NCBI GenBank assembly: GCA_016933815.1
Contig: JAFGAF010000194.1
Coordinates: 1 to 47,244 of the forward strand
DNA: 47,244 nt
From: Prolixibacteraceae bacterium
GTDB taxonomy: Bacteria > Bacteroidota > Bacteroidia > Bacteroidales > Prolixibacteraceae
Direction of reading: 5' to 3'
How positions within the stretch are numbered: the first letter of the stretch is position 1; the number at the start of each line of letters is the position of its first letter. Positions 3,050 to 34,473 of this stretch are shown piece after piece. The translations under genes and the position numbers were made by a program. The notes beneath the pieces are model-generated. The model worked only from the letters and a program-made list of their open reading frames with translations. It was not told the DNA's origin and ran no database searches.

Positions 3050-6000
3050 ATGAAAATATCAGAAATATCAATCAAACGGCCCATATATGTTATCGTATTA
3101 TTTGCCGTACTCACCATACTCGGTTACCTGGGGTTTCGCAACCTGGGCGCCGAACTGATGCCCAAGTTTACCCCGCCTGTAATCAATGTTCAGGTGGTTT
3201 ATCCCGGAGCATCGCCACTCGAGGTTGAGAACTCGCTGACCCGGAAGCTTGAAGATGCTCTTTCGAGCCTGGAAGGGATTGACCAAATTCAGTCCTATTC
3301 ATTCGAGGGAATGTCGATGCTTTTTGTACTTTTTAATTATGGCACCGATATCGATAAGACAATCACCAATGCGCAAAACCGTATTTCATCAAAAATGATG
3401 GAATTACCACGCGATATTTTATCACCAACTATTAATAAAGTAACCGTCGACGATAAGCCTATTATCTCAATTTCAGCCACATCTAAGCTCGAAGCAACTG
3501 CTTTTTACGACTTAATGGACAAGCGCATAATGCCTTACATGAACAGTATAAAAGGGGTTGCCAAAGTGAGCCTGCTAGGCGGACAAGCCCGCGAAATACA
3601 AGTCAACCTCGACATGGACAAGATGCGTGCCTTTGGCATTACGCCCATACAAATTCAAGGCATTATACGTGCATCGAACCTCGATTTTCCAACGGGTAGC
3701 CTAAAAAGCAACCAAACTTCGACCATTGTACGCCTATCGGGTAAACTCAAAAGCATTGAAGAAATAAAAAACCTGGTGATAAGCACATTGCCCACCGGTA
3801 GCCAAATACGGTTAAAAGATGTGGCCGAAATATCGGATGCAGTTAAAGATCCAACTACCCTTGCCCGGGTAAACGGCGAGGAAGCGCTGTTGGTTAACCT
3901 GCTCAAACAAGGCGATGCCAACGCCATAGAAGTAAGCGACATGGTTCGCGAAGCCATTGCAGCACTCGAAACCGAATTTGCCGACGAAGGACTGAAAATG
4001 GAAATTGCGCAAGACTCAACCGACTTTACCCGTCAATCGATCAACTCGGTATTAAAAGACCTTTTGATGATTGTTTTATTGGTAACACTGGTGATGCTAT
4101 TCTTCCTGCACAGTTTTCGTAATGCATTAATTGTAATGACCGTGGTACCTGTTTCTCTAATCGCCACTTTTATAGGCATGCAAATATTCGATTTCACGCT
4201 TAACCTAATGTCGTTACTGGGGCTTTCGCTTGTGGTTGGCGTTCTGGTCGACGATGCCATTGTGGTAATCGAAAACGTGTACCGCCACATCGAAATGGGC
4301 AAAAACCGCGTTCGGGCAACTTACGATGCCATGAAAGAAATTGGATTTGTGGTGATTTCAACCACTGTGGTACTTGTTGTGGTTTTTCTACCGGTTGCCC
4401 TTACCGAAACCTTGGTGTCGGACATTTTGCGACAATTCTCGTTGGTAATTGTGTTTGCCACCATATTCAGTACTCTGGCTGCACTTACACTTACACCACT
4501 GCTCACCTCGCGCTTTGCAAAGGCCGAAAACATTTCGGGGAAAGGGATTTTCAAAAAAATAATTATCGGTTTCGAGAAACTGATTACGAATTTTAGCAAT
4601 TGGGTTTCAAACATACTTTCCTGGTCGTTATCACACAAGCGATGGGTCGTAATTATTGTAACAGCCGTAACCATAGCCATATTCTCGCTATTTCCACTTG
4701 GTTTTATTGGTTTCGAATTTTTGCCAAGTGTTGACAGGGGCGAATTTAAAGTCCAAATTGAAATGCCCAAGGATATTTCCTTTGAACAATCGAATGCCAT
4801 GGTAAGGCGTGCCGAAGACTGGATGCGTTCTCAACCTATTGTTAAGAATGTAATTACCACCGTAGGGGCAACCAGCGATAACACCCAAAGCTCAAGAGGT
4901 ACAGCCTATTTGGCCGAGATGAACGTTGAACTGGTAAACCGCGATATGCGCGACATGGAAACAAGCCAATACGTAACCTTTATCAGGCAACCCCTCTCCG
5001 ATTTTTTGATGGATGCCAAAATAAAAATATTCAACGTTGCCCTAACCGGCGAGGCATCAAAAGCTCCTGTTGAATACGTAATTAGTGGCACCAACCCCGA
5101 CACCCTGATGGCTTTTGCCGAACGGGCACTTGAAGTTATGCGCAACATTCCGGGCACCATGCAACAAGAACTATCGGTTGAAAGTGGCACCCCCGAAATA
5201 TCGGTAGCTGTTAACCGCGACAAGATGTCGGCTCTTGGCCTAAACATGGACAACGTGGGGCTTACCATGCAAATGGCATTTCAGGGCAATAACACCCTAA
5301 AATATACTGAGAATAACTACGAATACGACATCAACATCAGGGCCGACAGGGCTTACCGGCAGCAAACCACCGATGTGGAAGCACTGACCTTTGTGAACAA
5401 CCGCGGTGAAAAAATTCGCCTCGACCAATTTGCTGATATTTTATTGAGTACTGGTCCCAATAAACTGGAACGTTATAACCGAAACAGTTCGGTTACCATT
5501 CGCACCCAATTACTGGGAACAACATCGGGAAATGTGTCAAGCCAATTTCTGAACGAAATGAACAACATGGGCATTCCCAAAGGCGTTAAAATTGAAGCTA
5601 CCGGCGATTTAAAATCGATGGCCGACTCGATGAGCGTTTTAACTTCAGCCTTACTCTTATCTATCGTACTTATATACCTTACCATGGTGGTATTGTACAA
5701 CAACTGGATCGACCCGCTGGTGGTGATGTTCTCCATACCGTTATCGATATTAGGAGCTACCCTGGCATTGGCGCTTACCAATACTCCGCTAAGTATTTAT
5801 GGCATGTTGGGACTGGTAATGCTCATTGGCCTTGTTGCCAAAAATGCCATCCTGTTAGTCGACTTTGCTAACGAAGCTATAAGACTAGGAAAGACAGCCG
5901 AAGAAGCCTTGATTGGAGCAGTAAAAATACGTACAAGACCAATCTTGATGACAGCTATTTCGACCATTGTAGGGATGCTCCCTGTGGCTTTGGCTACGGG

Positions 6001-6730: not shown

Positions 6731-6756
6731 TTGTATGGTTTTCATTGTATGAATCA

Positions 6757-6860
6757 CTATTTCAACGCTGCCTTGCTAAAAATATACTCGGGGATTTCAA
6801 TGTCGAACTCAATTTTGAAAACGGCTTTTTCGGTGTCGCCGCCCTGCTTAAGATTTTTCG
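6757..6860 (-). pseudogene. 3'-terminal fragment (tail 1) of a LolA-like outer membrane lipoprotein-sorting protein gene
   Basis: Minus-strand translation NLKQGGDTEKAVFKIEFDIEIPEYIFSKAALK*, matching the intact C-terminus MLKQGDGTEYTVTKIEFDVEIPEYIFSKAALKQ* encoded at 7810. Confidence 0.88.
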
Positions 6861-6875: not shown

Positions 6876-7340
6876 TTAAATTATTGCCGCACGTGAATTT
6901 GAAACAATATTTTTGATAGAATTTATACGCAAAAGCTGATCTCTTTTCTCGGGTTCAAGTTTAACATCTTTGTTGCCTAAAACCAACGATTCAAAGGGTA
7001 TTCCCAAATATTTGTTTAATAAAGTGATCATCTTTAAGGTCAATGGGCGTTTGCCATTCAGCACTTCCGAAACCCTTGTTTTTCCACCAAACAGTGGTGC
7101 CACATCGACCTGTTTTAAATTCATCTGTTCCATCCTGAATTTAATTGCTTCGATAGGATTTGGAGCCTCAATAGGATAATGTTCTTGTTCAAATTTTTCG
7201 ATAAGCAAGGACAAAAGCTCAAGCTCTTCACCCTCTGGAGAATCAGGCTCAACGGGGTTATCACTGCTGTGAATCAGGGTGTAAATCCGTAAACAAGCAT
7301 CATTGTATTCGTCTTCTGTTTTTAATATCTTATTATTCAT
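6876..7340 (-). CDS. higA: HigA-like antitoxin (XRE/HTH)
   Basis: HTH 'FRMEQMNLKQVDVAPLFGGKTRVSEVLNGKRPLTLKMITLLNKYLGIPFESL'; overlaps the upstream higB-like ORF by 8 bp. Confidence 0.88.
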   Translation of the reverse strand: MNNKILKTEDEYNDACLRIYTLIHSSDNPVEPDSPEGEELELLSLLIEKFEQEHYPIEAPNPIEAIKFRMEQMNLKQVDVAPLFGGKTRVSEVLNGKRPLTLKMITLLNKYLGIPFESLVLGNKDVKLEPEKRDQLLRINSIKNIVSNSRAAII

Positions 7341-7641
7341 AACTCACAGTTTTTGCATCAATTTTATCATATTCCTCATGGGTGCCAAACCAAACTACGA
7401 ACACAATTTTCAACTTATATTCAATGTCAACTATCAATCGGTAGTCATTACCTTTTATATTGAAAACTACTCGTTTCGAATTGACAACACTGGCATTGCC
7501 ATATTTAGCTTTGAGCTCACTTGCATTTCCCCACGTAGAGAAACGAACCTCATAAATCCAAGCTTTAACAGGCTCATCGGCCGGTTTGTATTTGCTCTTT
7601 TTACAATACTCGGTTAATGTCGATTCTTTGATTATTCTCAT
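7333..7641 (-). CDS. higB: HigB-like mRNA interferase toxin
   Basis: 102 aa, 'VKAWIYEVRFSTWGNASELKAKYGNASVVNSKRVVFNIKGNDYRLIVDIEYKLKIVFVVWFGTHEEYDKID', precedes higA. Confidence 0.9.
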   Translation of the reverse strand: MRIIKESTLTEYCKKSKYKPADEPVKAWIYEVRFSTWGNASELKAKYGNASVVNSKRVVFNIKGNDYRLIVDIEYKLKIVFVVWFGTHEEYDKIDAKTVSYE

Positions 7642-7680: not shown

Positions 7681-7703
7681 CCTCGGTGTAGATTTTTCAA
7701 ATT

Positions 7704-7806
7704 CTACTGTTTCAACGCCGCCTTGCTTAAAATATTCTCGGGGATTTCTACATCGAAATCAATTTTACATTGAAAATCCATACTTTCACTTTCATTTTTC
7801 AAGGTA
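7704..7806 (-). pseudogene. 3'-terminal fragment (tail 2) of the LolA-like gene
   Basis: Minus-strand translation LKNESESMDFQCKIDFDVEIPENILSKAALKQ*, same length as and co-linear with the intact gene's C-terminus. Confidence 0.85.
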
Positions 7807-7809
7807 ATC

Positions 7810-8544
7810 CTATTGCTTCAACGCCGCCTTGCTAAAAATATACTCGGGAATTTCTACATCGAATTCGATTTTTGTGACTGTGTATTCGGTGCCGTCGCCT
7901 TGTTTGAGCATGTCTTTATAGATCATCGTTTTGGGAAACCAGCGACTACCTATTTTTGCTACTTCGCGCATTTCAAGGCGTTTGAGCAGTTGGCCGCTTT
8001 TGGCGTACATTTCTTGCTTGAGCGGTACAAAACGTTCGGCATCGACCCACATTTTTTGGCTGTGGTAGGCAATGTCGGATGTTTTGGCAGTGAGCTCAAT
8101 CAGGTAGGCATTACGCCCGTCGATTTGCTCTTCGCCCAGCACTTTGGCATCGTACATGTCGGTCAGTTTGCGGTCGTCCATCATGTCTTCGTACGAGAGG
8201 TCGCTGCCCATTACGCTTTGGCGCAGCATGTGCCCCGATATTTGTATGGTGCGGTCGGTGCCGGGCGAATAAATCCACAGCTGGTCATCGAGCTTCAACA
8301 TTTTAGTACCGGCATCACGTGCCGGTGAAAGGTACTCGGTAAATGCTTTTTCGTTGCCCACGGCATAACTGCGCGAGGTCATGGTGCGCGAATTGCGTTT
8401 CCCATGAATGGTAATGGTCGATTCCATCACGCGGTTTTCCGACGAAAGGTTTTGGTCAACCTTGTCGAGTATTTCGTTGGCATCGGGCGCAGCAAAACCG
8501 GCTAATGCCAAAAACAAAGTTACAATTGTTGTAAATGTCTTCAT
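7810..8544 (-). CDS. Outer membrane lipoprotein-sorting protein (LolA-like)
   Basis: Signal peptide, 'MTSRSYAVGNEKAFTEYLSPARDAGTKMLKLDDQLWIYSPGTDRTIQISGHMLRQSVMGSDLSYEDM'. Confidence 0.88.
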   Translation of the reverse strand: MKTFTTIVTLFLALAGFAAPDANEILDKVDQNLSSENRVMESTITIHGKRNSRTMTSRSYAVGNEKAFTEYLSPARDAGTKMLKLDDQLWIYSPGTDRTIQISGHMLRQSVMGSDLSYEDMMDDRKLTDMYDAKVLGEEQIDGRNAYLIELTAKTSDIAYHSQKMWVDAERFVPLKQEMYAKSGQLLKRLEMREVAKIGSRWFPKTMIYKDMLKQGDGTEYTVTKIEFDVEIPEYIFSKAALKQ

Positions 8545-13616: not shown

Positions 13617-13776
13617 TTATTCGTATTTTATACTTTATACGTACAAATATACGTTATTTTTCTTTTTTGCAATATTTCGTAAGTTTATTATTGGAAAAAA
13701 TATCATTTTTGCTTTTTTGTTGATTACATTTTACGTTTTAGCGTTTTTTTGTTGATTTGGTTTGACGTTTTTGTGT

Positions 13777-13804
13777 ATATTTGTAAATCAAATTCAACAA
13801 ATAT
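13777..13804 (+). promoter_or_regulatory. -7 box plus dyad at the start of DUF4143 ATPase no. 1
   Basis: TATATTTG (TAnnTTTG) at 13776; ATATTTGT (13777-13784) / ACAAATAT (13797-13804), right arm overlapping the ATG. Confidence 0.6.
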
Positions 13805-15002
13805 GGAATTAAATAGATTGTACACATGGTCGTACCAACAAATAAAACGAACAAACAATACTTTTAAACGGTACTTATGCGAGCGGATAGACTGGAAGAA
13901 CCGGCTGAATATTATTATTGGGATGCGGGGCACCGGTAAAACCACCATGATGCTCCAGTATGCCAAAAATGAATTGCCTTTTGACGAATCGACAATTTAC
14001 GTATCGCTCGACGATATTTACTTTTCATCAAACAGCCTTGTTGTTTTTGTTGAAGAATTTGTAAAACGCGGCGGGAAATACCTGTTAATTGACGAAGTGC
14101 AAAAATACCCCAACTGGTCGAAGGAAATCAAAAGTATTTATGACAATTATCCTGAATTGCAAATCACAATAAGCGGTAGCTCAGCCATTGAAATACTTAA
14201 AGGCGAAGGCGACCTAAGCCGCAGGGCACTAATCTATCAACTTCACGGACTTTCGCTACGTGAGTTTGCCGAAATGAAATACCAACAAAAATTCGACACC
14301 ATTTCACTTGACCAAATAATCAACAATGCAACTTCAATATCCATTTCAATTTCAAACGAAATAAAACCCATTAAACTTTTCGAAGAATACCTGTCACATG
14401 GCTATTATCCATTTTCAATTAATGACGAAACCAATTTTGCACAACGAATGATGCAAGTTATCAACGTTGTGCTCGAAACCGACATACCGTCGGTCAACAA
14501 CATTGATTATAATGCGGTATTAAAAATGAAGAAGTTATTGGGGATAATTGCCGAATCGGTGCCCTTTAAGCCCAATGTTACCAAACTAGCGGTTCAACTG
14601 TCGTTATCGCGCGAAACACTGCTTAAATATTTTACACTGCTTGCAAAAGCCGATGTAATATCAACCCTATATTCTAATACCAAAGGGATCAGCGCATTAA
14701 ACAAGCCAGAGAAAATTTATCTGCAAAACCCAAACCTAGCCCATTTACTTTCGTCACAAAATGCTAACACAGGAAACATAAGGGAAACATTTTTTCTCAA
14801 TCAGCTTCAAATAAACCATCAGGTTGAATACCCTGTGAAAGGCGATTTTTTGGTCGATAAAAAATACACATTCGAGGTAGGCGGAAAAAACAAAAGTACC
14901 CTACAAATTAAAGAAATATCCAACGCTTACATCGCAGCCGACAACATCGAAATAGCTGTCGGTAACAAAATTCCGTTGTGGATGTTCGGGTTTATGTATT
15001 AA
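13803..15002 (+). CDS. AAA ATPase with DUF4143-like C-terminal domain
   Basis: Walker A 'GMRGTGKTT', Walker B 'YLLIDEVQKYPNW', 'ISGSSAIEILKGEGDLSRRALIYQLHGLSLREF'; start at MELNRLYTW. Confidence 0.88.
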   Translation: MELNRLYTWSYQQIKRTNNTFKRYLCERIDWKNRLNIIIGMRGTGKTTMMLQYAKNELPFDESTIYVSLDDIYFSSNSLVVFVEEFVKRGGKYLLIDEVQKYPNWSKEIKSIYDNYPELQITISGSSAIEILKGEGDLSRRALIYQLHGLSLREFAEMKYQQKFDTISLDQIINNATSISISISNEIKPIKLFEEYLSHGYYPFSINDETNFAQRMMQVINVVLETDIPSVNNIDYNAVLKMKKLLGIIAESVPFKPNVTKLAVQLSLSRETLLKYFTLLAKADVISTLYSNTKGISALNKPEKIYLQNPNLAHLLSSQNANTGNIRETFFLNQLQINHQVEYPVKGDFLVDKKYTFEVGGKNKSTLQIKEISNAYIAADNIEIAVGNKIPLWMFGFMY

Positions 15003-15083
15003 AATAGCTATTTTTGTATGCTTATTCGATATGTTGTCGATTTTCTATGCAATTTTCACTATCTTTGTGGAAACAATTGAAAA

Positions 15084-15716
15084 ATGAGTTCGATAAGAGA
15101 ATATGGAATAATACCGATAAGCACCGACATGGTGGCTGATGCAATTGGCGAATACCGTTCGCCTGCCGACCGCATTAGCCGTTTGGCCAGGCGTGGCGAC
15201 CTTATCAGGTTGCAGCGCGGGCTTTTTGTGGTTGCGCCTGAACTAAGCGGGCAAACCCTTTCGCGCGAACTCATTGCCAACCACCTGTACGGTCCGTCGT
15301 ATGTTTCGTTCGAAAGTGCCTTGAGTTACCATGGCATTATTCCTGAAAGGGTGCACATGGTAAGGTCGTCCACATTTAGGCGTTCGAGACAAGTAGAAAC
15401 TCCATTGGGCGTATTTCAATATACAACAGTGCCCGAAAACTATTATCCAATTGGCATTACACAAATGCTTTACGAAGAAGAAAATTATTCATTTTTAATG
15501 GCCAGCCCCGAAAAAGCCATTTGCGATTTGATTATATGCACCTCGGGGTTACGTATTCAATCGGAACGAGCCATGCGCGAATACCTTTATGAAGACATGC
15601 GCATGGATTTTGACGACCTTGAGCGAATTGATACCGGCATAATTGAACAGTGCATCGAACATGGTCGTAAAAGAAGAGAATTGAGGTATTTACTAAACGT
15701 TTTACAAAATGAGTAA
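15084..15716 (+). CDS. AbiEi-like antitoxin (type IV TA)
   Basis: 'RISRLARRGDLIRLQRGLFVVAPE' wHTH and 'YVSFESALSYHGIIPERV...MASPEKAICDLI'. Confidence 0.88.
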   Translation: MSSIREYGIIPISTDMVADAIGEYRSPADRISRLARRGDLIRLQRGLFVVAPELSGQTLSRELIANHLYGPSYVSFESALSYHGIIPERVHMVRSSTFRRSRQVETPLGVFQYTTVPENYYPIGITQMLYEEENYSFLMASPEKAICDLIICTSGLRIQSERAMREYLYEDMRMDFDDLERIDTGIIEQCIEHGRKRRELRYLLNVLQNE

Positions 15717-16545
15717 CAACATGTTCGACCAAATGCTTTCGAGGTACGAAATTCGCACCAAAGACGAAAAGCTGAATGCCACCCACGAGGTGATGCAGCA
15801 AATTAGCCTGGCAGGACTCTTTCGTGGAGGTTTTTTTAATCACGCAGCCTTCTACGGCGGAACCTGCCTTCGTATTTTTCATAAACTACCACGGTTTTCC
15901 GAAGATATGGATTTTTCGTTGCTCAAGAAAGATGACACGTTTAATCTTGAGGACTATTTCGATGCGGTTTATTCAGAATTTAAATCACTTGGCCGCGAAA
16001 TTAATATCGATAAAAAAGAGAAAAAAACAGAAAGCCATATTGAATCTGCTTTTTTAAAAGACAATACCGACATCTATAATTTAAAGTTTCAGACCGAGAA
16101 AACCGTAAAAATAAAAATAGAGGTTGACAAGGACCCTCCATTGCAGTTCAATAGCGAAAACAAGCTGCTTTTACACCCTTTTTCATTTATGACACGCTGC
16201 TACACGCTACCCAACCTTTATGCCGGGAAAATGCACGCGCTTGTTTACCGAAAGTGGCGAGGCCGCGTTAAGGGCCGCGACTGGTTCGACTTTGAATGGT
16301 ATGTGAAGAATAATGTCGCGCTCGATTTTAAGCATCTAAAAGAGCGCATCGCACAAAGTGAGAATATTGATAAAAGCGTGATTACACAGGAATATTTTAT
16401 TACTAAACTCAAAATAAAGATTTTAAACACCGACATCAGTCAGGTAAAAGCCGACGTACACCCTTTTATTAAGGATACAAAAGAAATGGAGCTTTGGAAC
16501 ACAGATTACTTTTTGCAACTTGCCGACATGATGCACTTCTCGTAA
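15709..16545 (+). CDS. AbiEii/AbiGii nucleotidyltransferase toxin
   Basis: 'FYGGTCLRIFHKLPRFSEDMDFSL' NTase motif; overlaps the AbiEi gene by 8 bp. Confidence 0.9.
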   Translation: MSNNMFDQMLSRYEIRTKDEKLNATHEVMQQISLAGLFRGGFFNHAAFYGGTCLRIFHKLPRFSEDMDFSLLKKDDTFNLEDYFDAVYSEFKSLGREINIDKKEKKTESHIESAFLKDNTDIYNLKFQTEKTVKIKIEVDKDPPLQFNSENKLLLHPFSFMTRCYTLPNLYAGKMHALVYRKWRGRVKGRDWFDFEWYVKNNVALDFKHLKERIAQSENIDKSVITQEYFITKLKIKILNTDISQVKADVHPFIKDTKEMELWNTDYFLQLADMMHFS

Positions 16546-21610: not shown

Positions 21611-22735
21611 TTATCTATACAGATTCAAATAGTTATCAAATGCATATACTCGACTTCTTTGACCACCAGTCTTTTCGTTCAATATATTAAGTTTCTCTAA
21701 ATCAGATATTAACTTATATGACGATGGCATTGAAATCGAAGCAACTTCACTTACCTTGGCAGCAGTAATCATCGGGCGTTTATATAAATATTCAATTACT
21801 TTCTTTGCCTTTAACGCTCTGCTGCCCAACAACTGAATGTCGTTATCAATTTGCTTTTGAAGTTGTAATATATTGTCAAAAGTGAAAATTCCATTTTTTG
21901 CAGTCTCAGTTACTCCAACAAGAAAAAATTTAAACCATTGCGCTAAATCATTTTTTTCTCTTACTGTAGTTAAATTATCGTAGTACAATTGTCTGTTTTT
22001 CTCAAAAAAATCGGATAAATACAAAACTGGTTTTTGCAATATTCCTTTGCTTACTAAATAAAGAGGAATCAAAAGTCGCCCAACCCGACCATTTCCATCA
22101 AGAAAAGGGTGAATTGTTTCAAATTGGTAATGAATCAAGCCTATTTTCAGCAATTCAGGTATATGAAAGTTTTCATTATGAATAAATTTTTCTATATCAC
22201 TCATCATATCAGCAACAGAGCTATGAACCGGGGGAATAAACACAGCATCATTTATTGTTGCTCCGCCAATCCAATTTTGACTAGTCCGAAATTCGCCCGG
22301 CTGTTTTTTTTCTCCTCGTACACCTTGAAGTAATACTCGATGAGTTTCTCTGATTAGCCGCGATGAAAAAGGCAGTTTATCAAATTGTTCAATAGCCCAT
22401 TCCATTGCTTTTATGTAGTTCTGAACTTCCTCCCAATCATCTCGTTTATCTAAAGGCAAATCCTCTTTATCCAAAAGAGCTTCATCCATATTTGTCTGTG
22501 TTCCTTCAATCCTACTGCTCTGAGTAGCTTCCTTTAACACATGCATACTGATAAACAACTCAATATTGGGAATATATTTTGAATACATATCCAACCTGCC
22601 TAATTCCCTGTCAGCTTCACTTAATAGTTGCAATATTTCCATATTGTCAACTTGTAATTGCCTGTTAATATATTCAGGTTGAAAGCTTCTGTAATAACCC
22701 TGATTTATGTATTGCCCTGATATAAACTGTTTCAT
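21611..22735 (-). CDS. Fic family protein with N-terminal inhibitory motif and C-terminal wHTH
   Basis: FIC motif HPFLDGNGRVGR; SSRIEGTQ inhibition motif; C-terminal 'MITAAKVSEVASISMPSSYKLISDLEKLNILNEKTGGQRSRVYAF'. Confidence 0.95.
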   Translation of the reverse strand: MKQFISGQYINQGYYRSFQPEYINRQLQVDNMEILQLLSEADRELGRLDMYSKYIPNIELFISMHVLKEATQSSRIEGTQTNMDEALLDKEDLPLDKRDDWEEVQNYIKAMEWAIEQFDKLPFSSRLIRETHRVLLQGVRGEKKQPGEFRTSQNWIGGATINDAVFIPPVHSSVADMMSDIEKFIHNENFHIPELLKIGLIHYQFETIHPFLDGNGRVGRLLIPLYLVSKGILQKPVLYLSDFFEKNRQLYYDNLTTVREKNDLAQWFKFFLVGVTETAKNGIFTFDNILQLQKQIDNDIQLLGSRALKAKKVIEYLYKRPMITAAKVSEVASISMPSSYKLISDLEKLNILNEKTGGQRSRVYAFDNYLNLYR

Positions 22736-22758
22736 TATGATTTTTTAAACAAAGATAA

Positions 22759-22796
22759 ACCTTATTTAATATTTTGCCATATTTATTAAATAAGGT
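22759..22796. promoter_or_regulatory. Putative Fic operator
   Basis: Perfect 13-bp inverted repeat ACCTTATTTAATA / TATTAAATAAGGT just upstream of a TATCTTTG -7 box (22751-22758, minus). Confidence 0.6.
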
Positions 22797-22949
22797 ATTG
22801 ATTTATTTAAAAATCAAAACATTTTCTTTAATACAAAGTTGTCTTTTCCATGCCGATAACTACATATCAATAATTTCCAATCCTTTCTGATTGTGCTCGG
22901 AAAACAATAAATGAATTCTCTCAGTCAGTTGACAAATATCGAAAAGCAA

Positions 22950-29835: not shown

Positions 29836-30597
29836 ATGGCAGATATAACACTCAAAAAGATATACGTAAAAGTTTGGAGGCAAAACAGTGCCAAAGAAAA
29901 AGGCCGCTTCGAAACTTATGAGGTGGAGAACATTTCACAAGGCAGCTCCTTCCTCGAAATGCTCGATATTTTGAACGACAAGCTCATTCGCGAAGGGAAA
30001 GATCCTATTGCGTTCGATCACGATTGTCGCGAAGGCATTTGCGGCATGTGCAGCTTGTACATTAACGGTCGTGCACATGGCCCCGACCGCGACATTACCA
30101 CTTGCCAATTGCACATGCGCAAGTTTAACGAAGGCGAAACAATCACCATTGAACCTTGGCGTGCCGGTGCATTCCCGGTTATTAAAGACCTGATTGTTGA
30201 CCGTACTGCTTTTGAGAAAATTCAGCAAGCAGGTGGTTTCGTTTCGGTAAACACAGGCGGCATACCCGATGGTAATGCCATACCTATTGGCTACGACGAT
30301 GCCGAAGAAGCAATGGATGCCGCTTCGTGTATTGGTTGTGGTGCTTGCGTGGCAACCTGCAAAAACTCGTCGGCCATGTTGTTTGTGGCTGCAAAAGTTT
30401 CGCAGTTGGCCAAATTGCCACAAGGTAAGGTTGAAGCAAAACGCCGTGCCCGTAACATGGTAACAAAAATGGACGAACTTGGCTTTGGCGGTTGCACCAA
30501 TACCGGTGCTTGTGAATTGGAATGCCCCAAAGGCATCAGCATTTCGCACATTGCCCGTTTGAACAGGGAATACCTGGTTGCAAAATTGGCCGAGTAG
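29836..30597 (+). CDS. sdhB: Succinate dehydrogenase/fumarate reductase iron-sulfur subunit
   Basis: '[22 protein letters not shown]', '[13 protein letters not shown]', 'CELECPKGI'. Confidence 0.97.
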
Positions 30598-30624
30598 GTT
30601 TTAACCAAAAAGCATTAGATACAA

Positions 30625-30659
30625 AAACCGCCTTCTCAGCATTGGGAAGGCGGTTTTTT
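30625..30659 (+). terminator. sdhB terminator (repeat copy A)
   Basis: AAACCGCCTTCTCAGCATTGGGAAGGCGGTTTTTT. Confidence 0.88.
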
Positions 30660-30672
30660 GGTTTTTATTAAT

Positions 30673-30885
30673 CTATACTGCAAGATTTATTGCCATGGAA
30701 CGCGGCATAGGAACAGGCCTTTTATCAGTTTGAAGTTCTTCAATATAAAGGTCAATTGCTTCTTTTATATTAATCTCTATTTCCTTAATCGACTCACCAA
30801 CACTAATGCATCCGGGCAAATCAGGAACATAGGCGCTATATCCTCCATTTTTACATTCTTCAATTATAACAACATAGTTTCTCAT
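30673..30885 (-). CDS. hicB: HicB-like antitoxin
   Basis: 'MRNYVVIIEECKNGGYSAYVPDLPGCISVGESIKEIEINIKEAIDLYIEEL'. Confidence 0.93.
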   Translation of the reverse strand: MRNYVVIIEECKNGGYSAYVPDLPGCISVGESIKEIEINIKEAIDLYIEELQTDKRPVPMPRSMAINLAV

Positions 30886-30891
30886 AATGAT

Positions 30892-31080
30892 TTATTTTAA
30901 GCCAGCTTGTTTTAAAATACTATTTTCTGTTCCTAATTGAATATCTTTATTTTGTTCATGATCAGGTACAACAACAATACCTTCTTTAATTCTATGCTTA
31001 TATACTTTGTGACTTCCTTTTTGACGCACAAAGTACCAACCATCATCTTCAATTAGTTTGATTAATGCTTTTAGTTTCAT
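30892..31080 (-). CDS. hicA: HicA-like mRNA interferase toxin
   Basis: 'MKLKALIKLIEDDGWYFVRQKGSHKVYKHRIKEGIVVVPDHEQNKDIQLGTENSILKQAGLK'; TAACTTTG -7 box directly upstream. Confidence 0.93.
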   Translation of the reverse strand: MKLKALIKLIEDDGWYFVRQKGSHKVYKHRIKEGIVVVPDHEQNKDIQLGTENSILKQAGLK

Positions 31081-31188
31081 TACTTCAAAGTTAGGGATTA
31101 TTTGAAACTTGAACAATATTAAAATGGGAGCATTGTATTCATTTTATAACAAACGAACTTATGCAACTTAATTTGGTTTGAAAATGGC

Positions 31189-31225
31189 AAACCGCCTTCT
31201 CAGCTTTGGGAAGGCGGTTTTTTTT
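31189..31225 (+). terminator. Orphan terminator (repeat copy B of the sdhB terminator)
   Basis: AAACCGCCTTCTCAGCTTTGGGAAGGCGGTTTTTTTT; one mismatch to copy A over 35 bp; no + strand gene in front of it. Confidence 0.85.
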
Positions 31226-31230
31226 AAAGA

Positions 31231-31395
31231 TCACCGCACCACCATCAGCCGTTGTGTTTGCACGCCTTTATCAGAATAAAGTGTAAGCAGGTAAATCCCT
31301 TCGGCAACGTTGCTCAAATCGAAGTCGAGTTGGTGCTTGCCGGCTGCAAAATGGCTTTGCAAGTAACGCAACTGTCGCTCGTGCCTAACATGGCC
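31231..31395 (-). pseudogene. 3'-terminal remnant of a T9SS type A sorting-domain gene
   Basis: Minus-strand translation HERQLRYLQSHFAAGKHQLDFDLSNVAEGIYLLTLYSDKGVQTQRLMVVR*, near-identical to the C-terminus encoded at 32644-32796. Confidence 0.92.
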
Positions 31396-31409
31396 GATCA
31401 CATATATTG

Positions 31410-32558
31410 CTAAATCCGATTAAAATTAACAATCTTATGGTTTTGAACAGTAAAATCATCATCGCCTGAATAGATCAGGGTTGATTCTTGAATACGATCG
31501 GGAATAAGGTTTCTTAAATAATTCAATCCTTTTAAAAATTCAGGGTGAAAGGTCATGGCCGATTTTATTTCGAACAGTTTTAGATAATGCCCTTGTTCTT
31601 GAACCAGATCAACTTCGTTTCCGTGGTTATCGCGGTAAAAGAAGAAATTACTGTCCAGGCCATTGTTATACCTTCTTTTCAGCAATTCAATCACAACCAT
31701 GTTTTCAAATAGGGCTCCTCTCAAGGGGTGGGTTGCCATGTGTGTTTCGTTTTCAATTCCTAAGAGGTATGAGGCCAAGCCAACATCGTAAAAGAAAATT
31801 TTGGGCGTTTTAACTATTCGCTTATTCAAATTTGAGTGCCATGGATGCAAAACAAATACAATATATGAAGCCTCTAATATTGAAAGCCAATTTTTTATGG
31901 TATGTACCGAAACCCCGATTTCATTGCCCAAGGCCGAAGCATTGAATAATTGACCGATACGACCGGCACACAAGCGAATGAAAAGCTGAAATTGATGAAG
32001 GTTCTGGATATTGCTCAATTGCCTTACATCTCGTTCCACATAAGTTTCATAATAATTTCGGTATGCTTTGTAAGGGTTCAATTCGTTAGAATATACTCCC
32101 GGATAAAAGCCTTTTGTTAGCAGATGGTCAACCCTAACTTCGCTGTCGAATTTGTTGGCTTCAGAGATGGTAAACGGAAGCAATTTCAATAACGATGTCC
32201 TGCCGGCCAAACTTTGAGAAACAGAGCTTAACATCGATAATTGATTGCTTCCGGTTAAAATAAACCGGCCCATCGTTCTTTTTGAATCAACAAGCCCCTG
32301 AATGTAAGACAATATCTCGGGATAACGTTGAAACTCATCAATGATCATTCCATCTTGGTTTGCTTGCAGAAAAGCTCTTGGATCGAGTTCGACTTGTTGT
32401 CGTGTGTCGGGGTTTTCAAAATTGAAATATGGTTTGTTGGGGAATGTGGTCCGCGCTAAGGTAGTTTTTCCCGATTGACGTGGCCCTGTTATGGTCACAA
32501 CAGGATAATGTCCCGACATCGCAAGCAATTCGTTATGTATTTCCCTTTCGATAATCAT
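31410..32558 (-). CDS. AAA ATPase with DUF4143 domain
   Basis: Walker A 'TGPRQSGKTTLA', Walker B 'MIIDEFQRYPEIL', C-terminal 'FFYRDNHGNEVDLVQEQGHYLKLFEIKSAMTFH'; start at MIIEREIHNELL. Confidence 0.92.
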   Translation of the reverse strand: MIIEREIHNELLAMSGHYPVVTITGPRQSGKTTLARTTFPNKPYFNFENPDTRQQVELDPRAFLQANQDGMIIDEFQRYPEILSYIQGLVDSKRTMGRFILTGSNQLSMLSSVSQSLAGRTSLLKLLPFTISEANKFDSEVRVDHLLTKGFYPGVYSNELNPYKAYRNYYETYVERDVRQLSNIQNLHQFQLFIRLCAGRIGQLFNASALGNEIGVSVHTIKNWLSILEASYIVFVLHPWHSNLNKRIVKTPKIFFYDVGLASYLLGIENETHMATHPLRGALFENMVVIELLKRRYNNGLDSNFFFYRDNHGNEVDLVQEQGHYLKLFEIKSAMTFHPEFLKGLNYLRNLIPDRIQESTLIYSGDDDFTVQNHKIVNFNRI

Positions 32559-32601
32559 ATTTGTACAATTTTGAAGTAAGAGTTCAATATTGTACAAATA
32601 T
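32557..32601. promoter_or_regulatory. 45-bp dyad overlapping the start codon of DUF4143 ATPase no. 2
   Basis: ATATTTGTACAA-tt-TTGAA-gtaagag-TTCAA-ta-TTGTACAAATAT; 12-bp perfect outer arms plus 5-bp inner arms. Confidence 0.7.
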
Positions 32602-32643
32602 AATCAAACCTTCTGAATAACAATATGATTTAAGACAAGACCT

Positions 32644-34473
32644 TTACCGCGCCACCATCAATCGTTGTGTTTGCACCCCTTTATCAGCATAAAGTGTGAG
32701 CAGGTAAATCCCTTCGGAAACGTTGCTCAAATCGAAGTCGAGTTGGTGCTTGCCGGCTGCAAATTGACTTTGAGGATGTAGCTCCTGCCTTTCGTGCCCT
32801 GCAAGGTCAACTAACGAAATGCGGGCATCGATGGTTTCGGGCAGTTCAAAGCTAACACTTACCCTATAATTGGCTGGATTGGGAAAGATTTTGAAATCAG
32901 TCAATTGCAAAGTGTTTTTGCACTCCTCGTAATACTTGCACTCGGGTTTTACCAGGGTTGATTTATCATCGGCAGTGATGTATTCAATTTCAGCTCGCAA
33001 ATCAACACTTACTTCCTCCGAAATGGAATTGAAAAAATTTTCGTTGGGAAGAAACCAAAAAATCAGGCTTTCGTTATAGCCACTGGCACAAACTTCGACA
33101 GGGATGAGCAAAGAAATTTGCTTGAATATTTCATCATCACCGGGAAAAAGCATAGGCAATAGTCCTAACGAGCCGAAAAGGGGGCTCCCTTTTTTATCTG
33201 TCATAAAAAGCGCTAACGAACCTTTGTTGAGTTCAGTATGTTGAAGTTCGTCGTATTGCATTGTTTGAATTTGAGAGTTCCTTTCTGCTAATACAACTTT
33301 CATTTGGCATCTTGAGTTTTTTCCGGTGTAAATTGTTGAGTCGGTATAAAAACAAAAACCTAATTTTTCCAACTCTTTTTCACTTAATTTCATAATTTTT
33401 GACTCATCCAGTAAGAATGGCGACTGATATAAAACAAAATCTTTTTGAGGGTACTTTTGTTTGTATAATTTAATTTTCAGCAATTCATCCAACATGGGTT
33501 TGTGATTTGCCGACAATAGATCATATAATTGATTGTTAACTACAAACCAAAGCAATATGTCGTGGTCTCCGTCTTCAAAGTCGGGAAAAACAATGGGTAG
33601 CAAAGTGTCGTTGGCCGATTCGAAAAATTCAGTTTCAAGTGTTCCATTCGACATGACATTTGAATAAAACCTGCTTGATTTATACACCGGATAGAAACTA
33701 AATTCGTTACCTGAAGTTTGAATTTTTTCAGTTCTTTCAAATGCAGTTTCTTCTTCAGTGATATAATATCCAGTGTAATTTGTGAGTTCGCCAAAAACCT
33801 GTTTTTGAGTTTTTCCAAAACGATAACCCATTCCATTCCAGTTATTTTCATAAAGGATCAAGCTGTCTTCTACTTGAAAACCAATCTTTTCCAACTCTTT
33901 GTTGCTCAATTTTAAAACAAATTTGCTGCCATCAATTGGCTCAAATGTATCGATATCGGAATCGATGGGCATGGCTTCAACAGAGGGCTCGGCTACTATG
34001 CTTTTAGAGGCAACTTGCATATTGTTAGCAAGCATCAAGCTGCTTTCTGTGGCTTCAGTTGTTTCTTTGTTCAAATCAGCCATGGTAATCATTTCATCGC
34101 CACTATTGTTATTCGTTGTTAGGGCACCATTGCCTTCTTGCTTCATTAATGGCATTGAGCCAGATGTATTTTCAATGGCATTTGATTTTTGATTTTTGTA
34201 ATTTGGAATTTCTTCCTGGGCTGTTGGCCATAAAAGCACGGCACTTACTATTACTGCAAAAATTGTTGTCATAATGGTAAATTTTAATAATTTTCGGCGT
34301 CCCTTCTTCACCTCAGCCTTAACCTCAGCCTTAGCCTCAACCTTAGCCTCAGCCTCAACCTCAGCCTCAACCTCAGCCTCAGCTATAATCCGGTGCACCT
34401 TCTCAATTTCCATCAACGGAGGGTTCTTTTTAACCAGCTCGAAATAGTTGTCGATTTTATTTCCGTTTTTCAT
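32644..34473 (-). CDS. Anti-sigma-like membrane protein with T9SS type A C-terminal sorting domain
   Basis: Cytosolic N-terminus 'KIDNYFELVKKNPPLMEIEKVHRII', one TM 'LLKFTIMTTIFAVIVSAVLLWP', C-terminal 'FKIFPNPANYRVSVSFELPETIDARISLVDLAGHERQ...GVQTQRLMVAR'; downstream of an ECF sigma gene. Confidence 0.8.
   Translation of the reverse strand: MKNGNKIDNYFELVKKNPPLMEIEKVHRIIAEAEVEAEVEAEAKVEAKAEVKAEVKKGRRKLLKFTIMTTIFAVIVSAVLLWPTAQEEIPNYKNQKSNAIENTSGSMPLMKQEGNGALTTNNNSGDEMITMADLNKETTEATESSLMLANNMQVASKSIVAEPSVEAMPIDSDIDTFEPIDGSKFVLKLSNKELEKIGFQVEDSLILYENNWNGMGYRFGKTQKQVFGELTNYTGYYITEEETAFERTEKIQTSGNEFSFYPVYKSSRFYSNVMSNGTLETEFFESANDTLLPIVFPDFEDGDHDILLWFVVNNQLYDLLSANHKPMLDELLKIKLYKQKYPQKDFVLYQSPFLLDESKIMKLSEKELEKLGFCFYTDSTIYTGKNSRCQMKVVLAERNSQIQTMQYDELQHTELNKGSLALFMTDKKGSPLFGSLGLLPMLFPGDDEIFKQISLLIPVEVCASGYNESLIFWFLPNENFFNSISEEVSVDLRAEIEYITADDKSTLVKPECKYYEECKNTLQLTDFKIFPNPANYRVSVSFELPETIDARISLVDLAGHERQELHPQSQFAAGKHQLDFDLSNVSEGIYLLTLYADKGVQTQRLMVAR
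34312..34383. repeat. 12x imperfect hexanucleotide tandem repeat CTYARC
   Basis: ctcagc cttaac ctcagc cttagc ctcaac cttagc ctcagc ctcaac ctcagc ctcaac ctcagc ctcagc, encoding [A/V][E/K] dipeptides. Confidence 0.92.

Follow-up and report, generated by a model that had tools for sequence, protein, structure and literature searches.

Displaced gene ends around toxin-antitoxin and DUF4143 genes in Prolixibacteraceae: probable scars of recombination anchored in conserved genes

The stretch of DNA considered here (in the following, the window: 47,244 nucleotides, i.e. contig C99, JAFGAF010000194.1, of the Prolixibacteraceae bacterium assembly GCA_016933815.1, which comprises 3.2 Mb in 584 contigs) carries small accessory modules, namely the toxin-antitoxin (TA) pairs hicBA and higBA and a gene of the DUF4143 family, each lying between an intact gene end, or its terminator, and a displaced copy of that same end. 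These duplicated tails are probably the scars of homology-anchored additive recombination at conserved gene ends. An earlier note on this DNA had described the arrangement for the three modules and had proposed from it a class of recombinase-less modules that insert at gene 3' ends and regenerate the tail; the arrangement is confirmed for hicBA (terminator), DUF4143 (tail of a gene for a protein sorted by the type IX secretion system, T9SS) and higBA (LolA-like gene), and the proposed class is better described as an entry route, of which TA and DUF4143 genes are common cargo.

Two of the modules stand back to back between sdhB (open reading frame, ORF, at 29836-30597, forward strand) and the T9SS gene (32644-34473, reverse strand; 609 aa; PF18962, E 1.6e-09). 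A first terminator copy, T1, made of a hairpin and a T run, adjoins sdhB at 30625-30659 and is followed, on the reverse strand, by the genes of a HicB-like antitoxin (30673-30885; PF15919, E 3.6e-14) and of the HicA toxin (30892-31116; PF07927, E 1.8e-20), beyond which the second copy, T2, is found at 31189-31223. T1 and T2 are identical at 34/35 positions (one mismatch; E ~4e-9 by self-BLAST, far beyond chance), and no further copy was returned when the entire assembly was searched at a tolerance of three mismatches. T2 lies 8 bp past the displaced C-terminal tail of the T9SS gene (R2; 31231-31408, reverse strand; partial PF18962), which pairs with the attached tail (R1; 32646-32772, reverse strand) with 93% identity over 127 bp (32646-32772 versus 31233-31359; E ~3e-48 by self-BLAST, again far beyond chance). 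Between the two tails lies the DUF4143 gene (31410-32597, reverse strand), and a fainter homology to the T9SS tail continues up to its stop codon; a third copy of this tail is absent from the whole assembly. Removal of both units in silico leaves sdhB and its terminator beside the T9SS gene, as the earlier note had reasoned, and a Pfam analysis finds no recombinase encoded in the modules, which contain HicAB, HigBA and DUF4143 only.

The two T9SS tails differ at about 9 codons, with 4 amino acid replacements; at 3/4 of the latter it is the displaced copy, not the attached one, that matches the nearest relative, G002, a comparison of polarity that is not decisive. A second T9SS tail was also observed in G004 (L097, G004:C587, 2539-2694), about 100 bp past the intact gene end and with no module between, i.e. 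a scar without cargo.

At the third locus, on the reverse strand throughout, the LolA-like host gene with its intact tail (ORF at 7810-8544) is accompanied by two displaced tails, three tails in all, and higBA sits between both displaced copies. One of these (copy 2, 7692-7766) is 85% identical to 7794-7872 and the other (copy 3, 6752-6852) is 78% identical to 7817-7908, the module in between (6876-7641) consisting of a helix-turn-helix antitoxin (6876-7340) and the HigB toxin (7333-7641; PF01381 and PF09907, respectively). The same gene end has been used elsewhere: in G001 the lolA tail and a displaced copy of it enclose a DUF4143 gene, and G003 has a displaced lolA tail too. In these two species (L143, G001:C86; L150, G003:C210) a 92%-identical DUF4143 gene was also observed immediately before the LolA-like gene, so that DUF4143 genes are drawn to either side of this host gene.

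Displaced gene ends recur in other genomes and with other host genes. A phoH-type gene of G005 keeps its intact tail on one side of a DUF4143 gene and has a displaced 167-bp copy of it (95%) on the other; in G032 sdhB and a terminator precede DUF4143, which is followed by a palindrome, a displaced 68-bp sdhB tail (93%), a second terminator, different from the first, and a T9SS-type gene; and in an isolate, Pedobacter petrophilus LMG 29686 (L226), the tail of the gene preceding DUF4143, a gene read from its translation as rsmG-like, is repeated as an 84-bp copy directly after DUF4143. A gene tail and DUF4143 in the same architecture are found in Nitrospirae. Among the TA pairs, higBA of G010 stands beside a short tail copy, and hicAB of G011 (L299, G011:C50) has on either side a copy of the same 71-bp segment with a terminator (200-269 and 961-1031), a parallel to hicBA of the window. 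The cargo may be of another kind altogether, since in G078, of the same genus as G032 (L331, G078:C898), sdhB is followed by a rhodanese-like gene, a gene for 450 aa and a CRP/FNR regulator (all named from their translations, without a family search), then by two displaced sdhB tails, the farther one frameshifted, with a DUF4143-type palindrome between them; this locus is read as the product of serial insertions with non-TA cargo. Finally, in G014 (L415, G014:C280) higBA lies between copies of the 5' end of a gene named dprA from its translation, upstream region included (913-1061 and 1892-2040), so that 5' ends are duplicated as well.

The tendency is also apparent in numbers, in tests that are based on selected loci and on 1.09 Mb of sample stretches and that count the window's own cases. 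Flanking direct repeats (<=700 bp) were found at 15/72 testable DUF4143 loci from many phyla versus 2/180 other ORFs there (Fisher P ~2e-7), the 15 being a mixture of palindrome pairs, dispersed repeats and gene ends in which gene ends are the minority (L226 and L261 are clear); repeats at L133, L138 and L142 had a dispersed or low-information look and were not taken as gene ends. For HigB and HicA the figures were 8/30 and 4/29 versus 0/54 sdhB and phoH control loci, gene ends again accounting for only some of them (the repeats at L304, L314, L395, L410 and L413 were set aside for the same reason as above), and, the controls being core genes, this enrichment is over core genes and not over all accessory genes. 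When 524 kb around DUF4143 and TA-type genes were scanned, displaced tails were met solely at such places, and no clear one was present in the 1.09 Mb of stretches, mostly picked regardless of these genes, where the candidates were dismissed as adjacent paralogues, tandem repeats or, in one instance, an unclear 72% repeat. The expectation of the earlier note that tail duplications around such modules would exceed the background, and would be met in other genomes, is therefore upheld.

How the two members of a pair differ bears on their origin. The phoH tails have 9 codon differences in their aligned part, 9/9 synonymous, and the rsmG tails have 3, stop included, 3/3 synonymous; that all 12 should be synonymous has P ~2e-7 under random change. 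A useless displaced copy is not expected to keep its protein while diverging, and the copies of both pairs thus diverged as working genes, which, on sequence grounds, would most simply have happened in two genomes. Most likely, then, the attached tail arrived with the cargo and the displaced one is native, a reading that also suits the amino acid replacements of the T9SS pair, in place of the regeneration of the tail that the earlier note had envisaged. Furthermore, wherever a coding 3' tail is clearly duplicated, homology breaks off at the stop codon or no more than a few bases away from it, and what follows the two stops is unrelated, as is expected of untranslated regions (UTRs) that come from different genomes.

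Homologous recombination through the carried tail, one of the routes suggested by the earlier note, is accordingly judged the best mechanism of transfer. The incoming DNA, from a related strain or species, would hold the end of a gene that the recipient shares, followed by one or more accessory genes, and would pair with the recipient copy of that gene; a first junction would be made by homologous recombination inside the gene and a second would be joined without homology, i.e. by homology-facilitated illegitimate recombination. Alternatively, the piece might circularize and enter by a single crossover, and the data fit the linear and the circular route alike. In either case the recipient gene would acquire the donor tail and the cargo, the native tail being shifted to the far side, by the old terminator and the neighbouring gene, and repeated events at one gene end would stack modules and tails, as may have occurred at sdhB, lolA and the T9SS gene. 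TA and DUF4143 genes would be frequent cargo probably because they are often transferred and retained.

Several observations weigh against recombination with a foreign tail, or at least restrict it. The codon pattern is mixed in the sdhB pair of G032 (3:1) and in the T9SS pair (~5:4), and in both the copies are closest to each other, so that any donor must have been a near relative; comparison of the phoH tails with relatives is not decisive on polarity; and neither a donor genome nor a same-species empty site for the window was found among the relatives searched. The dprA repeat includes the UTR at high identity and also fits a target duplication. The hicBA pair shares just the 35-bp hairpin, which is short for ordinary RecA recombination, palindromic and non-coding, and hicBA is the weakest of the window cases.

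Insertion with a long target duplication, in which the module would copy ~30-200 bp of its target so that both tails were initially identical and native, is unlikely, even though long variable direct repeats are known around addiction-type modules (PMC3874152) and the dprA/higBA and terminator/hicBA repeats are near-identical, non-coding bases included; it does not sit well with phoH and rsmG tails that differ synonymously only, with repeats that end at the stop codon or with two sdhB tails that, in G032, carry different terminators. That the displaced tails are instead remnants of decayed tandem paralogues, between which the modules inserted, would agree with the neighbouring paralogues that T9SS genes of the window gene's family form in G028 and with the tail without a module of G004. 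However, sdhB and the phoH-type gene are each present at full length only once in the genomes concerned and are repeated in no more than their last 60-170 bp, the displaced tails retain coding constraint and fragments other than tails are absent, all of which makes paralogue decay highly improbable. An artefact of assembly, with strains having and lacking the module merged in metagenome bins, is hardly credible at all: G000 and several of the comparison genomes are indeed fragmented assemblies, but the same pattern is present in the isolate assembly of P. petrophilus, and strain mixing does not explain the decayed, frameshifted tails of G078.

A different kind of explanation would make DUF4143 itself the agent, as a self-spreading single-gene element whose ATPase-nuclease product cuts at palindromes or gene ends and which is copied in by break repair, with a resistant donor tail by which the host gene stays functional, TA modules being secondary passengers or moving separately. 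Several features of the protein and of its loci speak for such a role. That of the window (PF13173, PF13635), for which the ATG at 32558 is the likelier start, giving 382 aa, combines an AAA_14 ATPase, a winged-helix-like middle part and a C-terminal motif of the PD-(D/E)XK type; an alignment of 54 sequences shows invariant Walker motifs and an invariant D330...E343-x-K345, and the structural model is confident (pLDDT 92, pTM 0.91), with AAA+/STAND-like ATPases (2qen) as the best match. The family is thus a candidate nuclease by its motif, full-length matches to nuclease structures being weak, and it is listed by PADLOC as a defence candidate, PDC-S01; its mobility, under the names DUF4143 or COG1373, is apparently not treated in the titles and abstracts of the papers that name them. 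Genomes of the genus hold between 4 and 17 copies each. A palindrome, 82% self-complementary over 51 bp, covers the promoter and start of the window gene (32554-32604), and other DUF4143 genes have similar ones upstream: of 75 loci, 30 have a strong palindrome immediately ahead of the start and 8 have a matching one past the stop as well, these 8 being all in Bacteroidota (L224, L246, L259, L267, L273, L279, L280 and L290), where near-perfect palindromes of ~33 bp, their arms matching and their centre variable, stand on both sides of the gene. Solitary palindromes of this type, without a DUF4143 gene, occur in G031 (L101:526-558) and G078 (L331, reverse strand, ~4563-4606), and are possibly remnants or empty sites. 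The palindrome could be the border of a mobile gene or an operator, and the upstream one is possibly merely the latter. Against a selfish DUF4143 are the same scars borne by HicBA, HigBA and rhodanese/CRP units without an intact DUF4143, the absence of tail duplication at most DUF4143 loci and the finding that, among the copies compared, no genome has recent near-identical ones at separate loci; most tail scars need no palindrome. This explanation is, on balance, improbable.

A second DUF4143-like ATPase gene is present in the window, followed by AbiEi and AbiEii genes in a defence-type block (13749-16545) around which no tail duplication was seen, and a 72-bp imperfect palindrome (22742-22813) occupies the promoter of a gene with a Fic domain (21611-22735).

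The interval between sdhB and the T9SS gene is, by comparison of relatives, a hot spot, and the 3' end of sdhB, of which orthologues are present in 56/61 relatives, is a recurrent one, with displaced tails in G032 and G078. In G005, of the same genus as the window, the order is sdhB, terminator, DUF4143 and T9SS gene, without hicAB and without a tail copy; in G010, of another genus, it is sdhB, terminator, DUF4143, hicB and hicA; in G031, of the genus of G010, hicB and hicA are followed by the solitary palindrome already mentioned and then by the T9SS gene and its sigma factor. The DUF4143 genes of G005 and G010 share 68% identity, and each just 45-46% with that of the window, whose nearest relative (71%) lies at another locus, in G001. 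Simple vertical inheritance of the window gene at sdhB is thereby rejected, the G005 and G010 genes being non-orthologous to it, and the interval has received different DUF4143 genes, of distinct subfamilies. The history of hicBA may be another one. The closest family-wide relatives of the window hicA (80% and 74%) are those of G010 and G031, in the same interval, the next best being at 54%, and the family-wide comparison found no close relative in G001 or G003; because another genus has hicBA in this interval too, the module may have arrived in an event separate from the terminator duplication, and hicBA may, by this comparison, be older than the duplication that surrounds it. As for the T9SS neighbours of sdhB in G032 and G067, their orthology is not clear, and G067 therefore shows merely the general empty arrangement.

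A single class of elements does not emerge from these loci. The earlier note had described it by TA or ATPase cargo and by insertion at 3' ends, within one architecture; neither these features nor common ends are supported: a rhodanese/CRP cluster lies between the sdhB tails of G078, higBA of G014 is flanked by copies of the 5' end of dprA, and the flanks at different genes share only short (<=19 bp), weak matches. With varied cargo, duplicated 5' ends and no common flank end there is no single element class, and the modules and flanks compared have neither the encoded recombinase nor the common terminal sequence that are hallmarks of transposons and integron cassettes.

Other systems provide partial parallels. 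In the minimal mobile elements of Neisseria, accessory genes are exchanged through homology of the flanking genes, also without a recombinase, but both flanks are homologous and no displaced tail, such as is found here, is known to be left. The dif/pdif modules of Acinetobacter similarly lack a recombinase, and some have TA genes; those are moved by the host XerCD and flanked by its common site, whereas comparison of flanks at the module borders met no common XerC/XerD site, the border repeats being specific to each host gene. Closer in form is the displacement of rhs C-terminal ends, which is limited to related donors and for which a circular intermediate has been proposed (Jackson et al. 2009, PMC2935791): there too the old gene end is shunted downstream of a new end and gene, fragments are displaced serially and a homologous core serves as anchor. 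In rhs, however, the incoming tip changes the protein end and is itself the selected trait, while here the tail encodes the same end, the cargo comes after it and the hosts are mostly housekeeping genes. Homology-facilitated illegitimate recombination, with one homologous and one illegitimate end (PMC3240628), has a proposed role in the immunity arrays of the type VI secretion system (PMC5361080), which resemble the present loci in additive insertion with retention of the displaced sequence; it has been described in transformation and conjugation experiments and at effector loci of that system, and not as a recurring TA/DUF4143 scar. Restriction-modification genes, finally, are addiction-type modules that insert without a recombinase and with long variable direct repeats (reviewed in PMC3874152), which are read there as target duplication, unlike the at least two cases here in which coding divergence preceded insertion.

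If homology-anchored recombination is indeed the source of these scars, displaced gene ends would document, in a form that can be read from sequence, the entry of chromosomal TA and candidate defence genes without a transposase, the cargo travelling on the end of a housekeeping gene common to donor and recipient. Each scar would reveal the side on which homology made the junction, the tail that is native and the order of arrival of the modules, and, being searchable in any genome, it would offer an answer, open to testing, to a long-standing question, the spread of chromosomal TA genes.

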